IMG/VR virus record: IMGVR_UViG_3300010149_000243
Span: 1 to 20,300 of that record
Length of the DNA: 20,300 nt
Direction: 5' to 3' (one strand)
Origin: a virus
This document shows, piece by piece, positions 11,219 through 13,281 of the stretch. Both the position numbers and the translations under genes were made by a program. Numbering within the stretch: position 1 is the stretch's first letter; every line of letters begins with the position of its first letter. The notes beneath the pieces are model-generated. The model was not told the DNA's origin. It was given only the letters and a program-made list of their open reading frames with translations, and ran no database searches.

Positions 11219-11763
11219 GTAGAGTAGTAGTAGCGTGGGGTAGATTCAATCCTCCAACAATCGGACACCAGAAACTTATCGATGCAGTTGCTAAGATTGC
11301 CGATGGAGATGACTACTTCATCTACCCTACTCATACTCAAAAGAAACCAAAGGACCCACTACCATCTGACAGGAAGGTGGAGTATATGAAAAAAATGTTT
11401 CCATCTCACGCATCACATATTATTCATAACAGGGATGTAAACACCATTATTAAATTGTTACAAGAGTATCAGGGAACCTATTCTGATTTGACATTAGTTG
11501 CTGGATCTGATAGAATCTCTAGTTATAAAGTACTATTGGATAAGTATAATGGTGTAGAATATACATATAGGAATTTAGATGTAGTCTCTGCTGGCGAGAG
11601 GGATCCAGATGCAGATGGTGCTTCTGGTATGTCTGCAAGTAAAATGAGAGCTGCTGCTAAAGAGTTAGATACTGTTACCTTTAGAAAAGGTATTTCAGAA
11701 AATTTAAGTAATCAGGATACATCAAAATTAATGATAGAAGTGAGAAAAGGTATGGGGTTATGA
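11215..11763 (+). CDS. HxGH-type nucleotidylyltransferase (NMN adenylyl/cytidylyltransferase-like), 182 aa
   Basis: Alpha/beta nucleotidylyltransferases transfer NMP from NTP to a phosphorylated acceptor, as NadM, CoaD and TagD do. Here the N-terminal strand and loop VVVAWGRFNPPTIGHQKLI (4-22) contains the T-x-G-H version of the HxGH nucleotide-binding motif (T15, G17, H18) with the GRFNPP lead-in typical of NMN adenylyltransferases. LTLVAGSDR (92-100) is the central motif, and GMSASKMR (138-145) corresponds to ISSTxxR. The length is about that of stand-alone NadM. AGGAG at 11206-11210 serves the ATG at 11215. Cyanophage annotations often say cytidylyltransferase; the acceptor is not determined by sequence. 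Its coupling to the KxDG protein suggests a shared nucleotide-based reaction or NAD-related chemistry. Confidence 0.85.
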   Translation: MSRVVVAWGRFNPPTIGHQKLIDAVAKIADGDDYFIYPTHTQKKPKDPLPSDRKVEYMKKMFPSHASHIIHNRDVNTIIKLLQEYQGTYSDLTLVAGSDRISSYKVLLDKYNGVEYTYRNLDVVSAGERDPDADGASGMSASKMRAAAKELDTVTFRKGISENLSNQDTSKLMIEVRKGMGL

Positions 11764-12038
11764 GAAATTTTAAACATCTTAGAGAGCAAGCACTGCGTCA
11801 GCAACAAAGACATGAAGAATTTTTTCAAGAAGGTGACGCGGTTATGTCTGCATTAACTGGAGAAAAAGGAACAATTAAACGTGTAGGTGGTAACTATGCT
11901 ATAGTAATTTCCGAATCAGGTCAGATGTTTCGTTCGTGGATAAAAGATATCCGTCATGTCAATGTTATAGATTCTATAAATAAAGAGAGGAAAAGAAGTA
12001 TCTTCGACAATAATGGAACGTCAAAAACCAACGACTAG
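11760..12038 (+). CDS. Small KOW/SH3-like protein, 92 aa
   Basis: The last gene of the cassette, joined to the nucleotidylyltransferase by ATGA (11760-11763). Residues 1-22 form a basic, Gln-rich helix (REQALRQQQRHEEFF). Residues about 24-66 (EGDAVMSALTGEKGTIKRVG then NYAIVISESGQMFRSWIKDI) have the GDxV...GxxGxI...YxxV pattern of KOW/SH3-like nucleic-acid or protein-binding barrels. The tail is polar and probably disordered. It contains a perfect late promoter (11975-11982) and overlaps the next gene by 26 bases. Function unknown. Confidence 0.7.
   Translation: MRNFKHLREQALRQQQRHEEFFQEGDAVMSALTGEKGTIKRVGGNYAIVISESGQMFRSWIKDIRHVNVIDSINKERKRSIFDNNGTSKTND
11975..11982 (+). promoter_or_regulatory. 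T4-type late promoter TATAAATA
   Basis: A perfect match to the T4 late -10 consensus, located 30 bases before the ATG at 12013 and inside the 3' part of the KOW-like gene. The spacing equals that of the other late promoters here, so it probably drives the Zn-knuckle/EF-hand protein as a late gene. Confidence 0.65.
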
Positions 12039-12921
12039 TGTTCAGCATAATGACGAGTTCTCTAGAGCTCTAATTGAATCTTATGGTAAATGGACTCAGG
12101 GTGCAGGATTCGGATGGCATCTTCATGAAGAAGGTATTCCTGCCGAGCAGAAGCAAGGCGAGGAACAACCTACCCGTGAAGGCGGTGCTGATGCTTCCAC
12201 ATCAATCCCTGATCTTGCTGGTAGTGAAGAGAAGAGTGATGAAGGTGAAAAAGATATCAAAGCAAATGCAGGTGCTCCTGATCCTGCTACCGATTTACGT
12301 GTTGGTGCAGGCGTCAAACAATCTCACGGAGCAGAAATTCGCGACACCACGAAGGTGGTTGCGAAGGAGTCGTGTGATACCTGCTCTAATTGCGGAGGGA
12401 AAGGGTGCTCCAAGTGCCAGAAGGAAGATAAGAATAGTATGAAGAAAGAAAAAGCAGTGACTGAAGGCAAAGGTCTCTATGCAAATATTCATGCTAAGAG
12501 AAAAAGAGGTGGCACTCCTGCTAAACCAGGCAGCGATGCTTACCCCGCTAAGGATGCATTCAAGAAGTCTGCTAAGACTGCTAAGAAAGAAGCAGTATCG
12601 TTTGAACTTGATGGTGTTGAGTATGTCTTTGAAGAAGAAGTAATCGAAGAAGGCATGAAGACCGCACGTAAAAATGTCGGTGCTTCTACATGCTGGAAGG
12701 GATACAAAGCATCTGGCACCAAGAAAAAAGGTGGCAAAGAAGTTCCTAATTGTGTCAAGGAAGGAAAGAAACTTGATGCAGTAGGTAAGGAAGACAAGGA
12801 CATCGACAACGATGGTGATCACGATAAGTCTGACAAGTATCTCCTAGCACGTCGTAAGAAAGTATCCAAGATCATTGGTGCTAAGAAAAAAGGCATGAAG
12901 GAAGAAACCGAAAAAAAGTAA
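12013..12921 (+). CDS. Probable virion-associated protein with Zn-knuckle and EF-hand-like loop, 302 aa (possible -1 frameshift extension)
   Basis: Regions in order: a Glu/Gly-rich flexible segment (40-118); a cysteine cluster C121-x2-C124-x2-C127-x4-C132-x2-C135 with a CGGKGC core, like a zinc knuckle or DnaJ-type half-finger; the motif GLYANIHAKRKRGGTPAKPG (154-173) followed by AYPAKDAFKKSAKTAKKEA, which recurs in cyanophage virion proteins as I recall; CWKGYKASGTKKKGGKEVPN (227-246); and DIDNDGDHDKSD (263-274), a 12-residue EF-hand/dockerin-like calcium loop with acids at positions 1, 3, 5, 7, 9 and 12. The C-terminus is very Lys-rich. The late promoter at 11975 supports late expression. 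The UAA at 12919-12921 directly follows an A-AAA-AAG slippery heptamer; see the separate entry. Confidence 0.8.
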   Translation: MERQKPTTSVQHNDEFSRALIESYGKWTQGAGFGWHLHEEGIPAEQKQGEEQPTREGGADASTSIPDLAGSEEKSDEGEKDIKANAGAPDPATDLRVGAGVKQSHGAEIRDTTKVVAKESCDTCSNCGGKGCSKCQKEDKNSMKKEKAVTEGKGLYANIHAKRKRGGTPAKPGSDAYPAKDAFKKSAKTAKKEAVSFELDGVEYVFEEEVIEEGMKTARKNVGASTCWKGYKASGTKKKGGKEVPNCVKEGKKLDAVGKEDKDIDNDGDHDKSDKYLLARRKKVSKIIGAKKKGMKEETEKK

Positions 12922-13016
12922 AAAAGCCAGTGGTTGAGATCATGCCTGAACTAGATGACGGCGAACCAGATCCTAAACCAATGAAACCTGGCAAAAAAGA
13001 TAAAAAGGATAAATAA
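12898..13016 (+). other. Candidate programmed -1 frameshift site and extension of the 12013 gene
   Basis: SD-like AAGGAAG (12898-12904) is followed after 7 bases by the in-frame slippery heptamer A-AAA-AAG (12912-12918) and at once by UAA. Slipping back one base gives a -1 frame open to TAA at 13014-13016: VKKPVVEIMPELDDGEPDPK followed by PMKPGKKDKKDK, 32 residues, for a 334-aa product. The extension has the same Lys/acid/Pro character as the parent. The arrangement resembles the E. coli dnaX signal. Alternatives are an undercalled A in the 7-A run, a separate 24-codon ORF starting at ATG 12942, or a natural truncation. Confidence 0.5.
13008..13015 (+). promoter_or_regulatory. Late promoter GATAAATA
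   Basis: It matches NATAAATA and lies 24 bases upstream of the ATG at 13040. It overlaps the TAA (13014-13016) that ends the -1 frame extension. It probably serves the 66-aa gene. Confidence 0.5.
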
Positions 13017-13039: not shown

Positions 13040-13240
13040 ATGTTGTCTTTTCTACTCCCACTAGCATCAAAAATTATCAAAGATGCTGTCGATAAAATTC
13101 CTGACAATGAAGAACTTGGTGAGAAGATGGTTGAGATCTGTCTTGTTATTCTTGCTAAAGCAGTTAAGTTGACCAAGACTGATATGGACGATCAACTTCT
13201 TGAGGTTGTATCTGCCGCAATTAAGAACCGAGAAGAGTGA
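13040..13240 (+). CDS. Small helical protein of unknown function, 66 aa
   Basis: The protein starts MLSFLLPLASKIIKDAVDKI and continues as amphipathic helices (EEKMVEICLVILAKAVKL-like segment at about 27-43, then MDDQLLEVVSAAIKNREE). The N-terminal hydrophobic stretch is short and punctuated by Lys and Asp, so it is more likely an amphipathic helix than a membrane span. A late promoter upstream and a strong terminator downstream make this a one-gene unit among virion genes. No Shine-Dalgarno is obvious. It could be a small virion or chaperone-like helical bundle; I do not recognise a family. Confidence 0.7.
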   Translation: MLSFLLPLASKIIKDAVDKIPDNEELGEKMVEICLVILAKAVKLTKTDMDDQLLEVVSAAIKNREE

Positions 13241-13274: not shown

Positions 13275-13281
13275 ATAAATA
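13274..13281 (+). promoter_or_regulatory. T4-type late promoter TATAAATA
   Basis: A perfect consensus directly abutting the T-run of the terminator and 32 bases before the ATG at 13314. It insulates the Ig-like virion gene from upstream transcription and gives it its own late start. Confidence 0.75.

Follow-up and report, generated by a model that had tools for sequence, protein, structure and literature searches.

The slippery heptamer A_AAA_AAG is the dnaX site of E. coli (PMC5009743). The locus described here shares with dnaX this heptamer, a Shine-Dalgarno (SD)-like site as candidate stimulator on its 5' side and a predicted stem-loop a few nucleotides downstream, but the gene is unrelated. 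The 0-frame stop also lies directly past the slip site, so that the shifted product would be the longer one here, unlike in E. coli dnaX; a few bacterial dnaX candidates have such a reversed layout (Atkins et al. 2016, PMC5009743). Among phages, lambda gpG/gpGT and other tail-chaperone frameshifts likewise add a C-terminal module by a -1 shift close to where a late gene ends, although the gene, the neighbourhood and the slippery heptamer are different. Gene 10A/10B of T7 also gains a short C-terminal extension by a -1 shift at the gene end; it encodes the major capsid protein and is not homologous to the gene discussed below. Closest in gene content are cyanophage loci such as that of ACG-2014i (type 2 hereafter), which have the same parent gene family, the same locus and the same VEVMP tail module. 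There, however, the tail is a separate ATG-started protein, mostly with an AUGA overlap, and neither the heptamer-plus-stop cassette nor the stem is found. We found no earlier report of frameshifting in cyanophages in the open-access papers searched, a scope outside which most subscription journals fall.

The window, i.e. the whole stretch of DNA that was analysed, is a 20,300-base IMG/VR record of a T4-like cyanophage. Over the region of the gene of interest (the parent gene) it is about 90% identical to the Vellamovirus phages S-RIM44 and Syn1. The features of the locus are the following:

11975-11982, + strand: T4-type late promoter motif TATAAATA (NATAAATA), shortly 5' of the parent ATG
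12013-12921, + strand: parent gene, 0 frame, 302 aa, Lys/Glu-rich, homologue of Syn1_163 and S-PM2 p142
12799-12834, + strand: EF-hand-like loop D-I-D-N-D-G-D-H-D-K-S-D in the parent, columns invariant or nearly so
12898-12904, + strand: SD-like AAGGAAG, 7 nt 5' of the heptamer
12912-12918, + strand: slippery heptamer A_AAA_AAG in 0-frame phase, inside a seven-A run (12911-12917)
12919-12921, + strand: 0-frame stop UAA, directly 3' of the slip site
12918-13016, + strand: -1-frame extension, 32 codons plus stop (TAA at 13014-13016), VKKPVVEIMPELDDGEPDPKPMKPGKKDKKDK
12926-12935, + strand: 5' arm of the predicted stem, GCCAG TGGTT (GCCAGTGGTT), 7 nt 3' of the heptamer
12933-12947, + strand: V-E-I-M-P, the motif that marks the extension, with an internal Met
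12976-12980, + strand: 3' arm of the predicted stem, part 1, AACCA
12988-12992, + strand: 3' arm of the predicted stem, part 2, CTGGC
13009-13015, + strand: ATAAATA over the stop of the extension (38/49 loci)
13040-13240, + strand: conserved downstream gene of 66 aa, T4-like GC 424, phrog_402, used as neighbourhood anchor

The parent gene ends GAA AAA AAG TAA, and the frames give products of 302 aa (0 frame) and 334 aa (with the -1 extension). The original prediction had proposed these two forms, with the heptamer at 12912-12918, AAGGAAG at 12898-12904, the UAA and a -1 frame open to 13016; the positions all hold and the lengths of the frames agree. Our analysis indicates that a programmed -1 ribosomal frameshift of the dnaX type very probably yields the two proteins.

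Over its full length the parent protein matches phrog_4359 (E 2.6e-113), a family with no assigned function, and its Syn1 counterpart belongs to T4-like GC 1080. It is predicted to be mostly disordered (AlphaFold pLDDT 48). The EF-hand-like loop ranks among its best-conserved stretches and, judged by its pattern, may bind calcium. The neighbours of the gene are cytidyltransferase-like genes on one side and, on the other, the GC 424 gene and the gene of a Hoc-like head protein. Just upstream, a 92-aa gene (11760-12038) carries the public name 'ribonucleotide reductase alpha subunit' and also matches a cytidyltransferase PHROG; the former name looks like a propagated misannotation. The original prediction had likened the arrangement to phage tail-assembly frameshifts. 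This likeness fails, given the neighbours and the phrog_4359 match: the parent had no match to a tail-chaperone family, there was no major-tail or tape-measure neighbourhood, and the protein is not a tail-assembly chaperone.

In each of the 37 genuine homologues whose upstream sequence is long enough, an ATAAATA starts 34-37 nt ahead of the parent ATG, so that the gene is probably late; the late promoter of S-PM2 is NATAAATA (PMC2984593). The ATAAATA over the stop of the extension is probably the late promoter of the next gene, and another copy of the motif (13275-13281) lies ahead of the gene for the Hoc-like head protein. A DUF3008-like domain forms the end of some extensions, and at the same locus of S-SCSM1 a gene of this module is labelled a virion protein, in a study that used mass spectrometry to identify virion proteins. 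The original description of the parent as a probable virion gene is thus plausible from the late-promoter motif and the S-SCSM1 module label, both indirect. Our best guess is a late protein, probably associated with the virion, that comes in two forms, one short and one with the tail.

Homologous loci were gathered without reference to the slippery site by several routes: the parent protein, the downstream 66-aa gene, a DNA pattern for the DKSDKYLxxRRKK stretch of the parent, and named phage records. They fell into two classes. Type 1 comprises 50 non-redundant loci (48 from an IMG/VR-led set that includes the window, plus S-PM2 and S-CAM3), with isolates from Vellamovirus, Yushanluvirus, Bristolvirus, Anaposvirus, Charybdisvirus and Nodensvirus and several unclassified Synechococcus phages. 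Their parents end in NNA AAA AAG, with the stop adjoining in 47/50 (TAA 23, TGA 23, TAG 1) and one codon further on in 3/50, and the -1 frame leads to a homologous V-E-V-M-P tail in 50/50. In the 65 type-2 loci the parent typically ends in Lys codons and a UGA overlapped by AUG (in a few, UAA stands just ahead of the AUG instead), and the module is an ATG-started protein, MKTFKQLREEC...VEVMP. As a locus counts as type 1 only if heptamer and tail occur together, what is informative is that no locus with a -1-frame tail and no ATG at the stop lacks the heptamer, and that a single type-2 locus (L225) has it, by chance. None of the fetched loci has parent and tail fused in frame. In a tree of 113 parent proteins, built on short and mosaic rows and with some long branches, the two types were strongly clustered, with about three changes between classes.

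On its own, AAAAAAG is common in the window (15 observed vs 9 expected). The slip pair is nevertheless AAA-AAG in 50/50 type-1 loci vs NNA-AAA-AAG in 1/501 other Lys-Lys pairs of the same genes. The codons of the nearby conserved Lys pair of RRKK vary (26 AAG-AAA, 16 AAG-AAG, 5 AAA-AAA, 2 AAA-AAG). The codon ahead of the slip pair may be GAA, TCA, GGA or GCA and the A run 6 or 7 long; because this codon differs, it is the heptamer that is kept and not the seven-A run. It persists even where the stop sits one codon further (L079, L228, L261, P-HM2). Both slippery site and extension are thus retained in homologues, and by comparison of the loci the combination of in-phase heptamer, stop and homologous -1 tail is in excess of chance. 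In the window a second A_AAA_AAG (12920-12926) occurs in the -1 frame just past the first; among the type-1 loci checked it is found only here, relatives having mostly AAG AAG, and it could permit another slip by ribosomes already shifted.

An SD-like site lies 6-11 nt upstream of the heptamer in 45/50 type-1 loci, and its predicted pairing with the 16S anti-SD across the 50 loci is strongest at a distance of 6-9 nt between the end of the site and the heptamer (mean -7.7 kcal/mol). The usual forms are AAGGAGG at 7 nt, as in the closest relatives of the window, or AAGGAG at 11 nt, in another group; the AAGGAAG of the window is weaker than the AAGGAGG of its relatives. The spacing given for -1 stimulation is 9-14 nt (Atkins et al. 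review, PMC5009743), which puts the 7 nt of the window on the short side. Both the short spacing and the weaker site count against the frameshift.

No clear downstream stem had been seen in the original prediction, but one exists seven nucleotides past the heptamer (MFE -17.1 kcal/mol, z -2.8 against dinucleotide shuffles), enclosing a long loop. The proposed resemblance to the dnaX cassette is therefore not only supported but better than first thought. In most type-1 loci the stem starts 6-7 nt past the heptamer, and the 60 nt past the heptamer have a mean z of -2.4 vs about 0 to -1 at other offsets; the matching place in type-2 loci gives -0.57. Further on, 60-120 nt past the parent stop, the 65 type-2 loci fold somewhat better than shuffled sequence (mean z -1.7). 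Different groups build the stem from different sequence, e.g. GGAGCACC/GGTGCTCC in L025, GGAGTGTCC/GGACACTCC in L028, GCCAGTAGTC/GATTACTGGC in S-RIM32 and GCCAGTGATT/GGTCGCTGGC in S-PM2. In one group of 16 sequences (group 2), 93% of cells pair vs 32-62% when slid, and 14 changes affect both sides of a pair vs 5.6 in shuffles (0/500 reached this number); G-C to C-G and A-U to U-A are among them. Within the close group of the window RNAalifold recovered the stem but no two-sided covariation, which, like the long loop, counts against the frameshift. Twelve aligned relatives all keep the CTGGC arm unchanged, though the residue in whose codon it starts differs (P, A, S, T).

The alternative that survives best, while still improbable, is that parent and tail are two separate genes, the tail being made by re-initiation or from its own GTG or ATG past the 0-frame stop. 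This is how S-RIM44, Syn1, S-PM2, S-CAM1 and others are annotated, sister phages do use the AUGA overlap, and the TGA variants generate a GUG overlapping the stop. In the window, however, no start codon overlaps or adjoins the 0-frame stop, as one does in type-2 loci: the codon after the heptamer is GUA and the first in-frame GUG (12930-12932) is four codons into the extension. Eleven other type-1 loci have no ATG, GTG or TTG at all between slip site and motif, and reading of the sequences of P-HM1 and MED4-213 likewise revealed no start codon between heptamer and motif. The tail is retained with or without the GUG in a TAA/TGA sister pair (L019 vs L009), and the SD is at least 13 nt from any candidate GUG. 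Heptamer and stem would also be left unexplained by separate genes.

Against two genes there is, in addition, a protein-level constraint that reaches back to the slip site. Upstream of the motif ATG, most changes affect the third position of -1-frame codons and none the second: pairwise differences by codon position, as raw pair counts uncorrected for kinship, were 569/0/1863 over the three codons ahead of the motif ATG and, counted in the same uncorrected way, 88/0/244 over the eight codons ahead of it in the group of the window. S-CAM1 (TGA, which makes a GTG) and L019 (TAA, no GTG) have nearly equal 17-18 residues before the motif (VNEACGCDDKPAKKG...), and these resemble the EECGC...KKK stretch of type-2 proteins, where the residues upstream of the motif Met belong to the ATG-started frame. 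Since they are shared with or without the GTG and resemble type-2 proteins, the motif Met is internal. Judged from these substitution patterns, the -1 frame is under protein-level selection upstream of any ATG, and the annotated GTG or ATG starts of the tail are most likely choices of gene callers.

Transcriptional slippage on the A run, adding one A to some mRNAs, would also give the -1 frame, but we regard it as very improbable: the runs have just 6-7 A in the loci counted, compared to about 9 in documented bacterial cases (PMC5009743), ribosomes would suit both the SD-like site and the position of the stem on the 3' side, and this stem is still unmade when RNA polymerase crosses the run. 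Homopolymer errors do happen and the contig is an IMG/VR record, but the loss of one A from the run, offered as an alternative in the original prediction, is refuted by the homologues and can be set aside, as the same frame relation and heptamer recur in about 50 loci, among them many metagenomic contigs, and in isolates that were sequenced independently (S-RIM44, Syn1, S-PM2 in two records, two isolates of S-CAM1, S-CAM3, S-RIM32, S-H9-2, P-HM1/2 and MED4-213).

Under the favoured frameshift, most ribosomes would read ...GAA AAA AAG UAA and release the 302-aa protein. A fraction would be held on the heptamer by mRNA:anti-SD pairing behind and the stem entering ahead, the tRNA-Lys pair would slip from A_AAA_AAG to AAA_AAA, and, with the stop bypassed, 32 residues would be added (334 aa). 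Heptamer, adjacent stop, SD-like site, predicted stem and -1-frame coding constraint are established at the level of sequence; what we infer is the slippage itself, its efficiency and a service of both forms in or on the virion. There the VEVMP tail may supply this late and largely disordered protein with an additional module for binding or assembly. The mechanism is of a known kind; novelty appears to lie in the gene and its conservation, and in the alternation of frameshifting with start-stop coupling. This would be a dnaX-like cassette in a late gene of T4-like phages, carried by laboratory phages (S-PM2, Syn1, P-HM1), and a conserved frameshift of widespread marine cyanophages hidden by annotation, in which the extension is filed as tiny genes (phrog_11051, phrog_30268) or omitted. 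A natural comparison of two routes to a two-part product is offered by the sister phages, in which the module is expressed through start-stop coupling.

Heptamer and tail also occur behind another parent. Eurybiavirus phages of Prochlorococcus (P-HM1, P-HM2 and MED4-213, i.e. L310, L309 and L311), reached via weaker tblastn hits and not by a systematic survey, have A_AAA_AAG and a V[EV][IV]MP tail after a different parent C-terminus (...EFSEWRAIAEKK in P-HM1), also with a predicted hairpin. Slip cassette and VEVMP tail might form a modular recoding unit found on different late proteins (the phrog_4359 type, the Eurybiavirus GC 534 type and possibly that of L166) and exchanged in evolution with the AUGA-coupled separate gene, a tentative reading to which we give somewhat less than even chances. 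If true, cyanophages would make the module in two ways, joined to a parent by frameshifting or as a protein on its own.

Two further sites were noticed. In L166 (2571-2577) the end of a different parent gene reads A_AAA_AAG TAG, directly followed by a 7-bp G+C-rich hairpin, with a -1 extension of 130 aa; its relatives S-BM1 and S-RIM2 have the extension module in frame within one gene, and this is either a third cassette or an indel. In L118 (462-468) a further A_AAA_AAG plus stop precedes a -1 frame that stays open for 300 codons, the limit of the scan, but an ATG shortly downstream suggests that this is simply the gene that follows.
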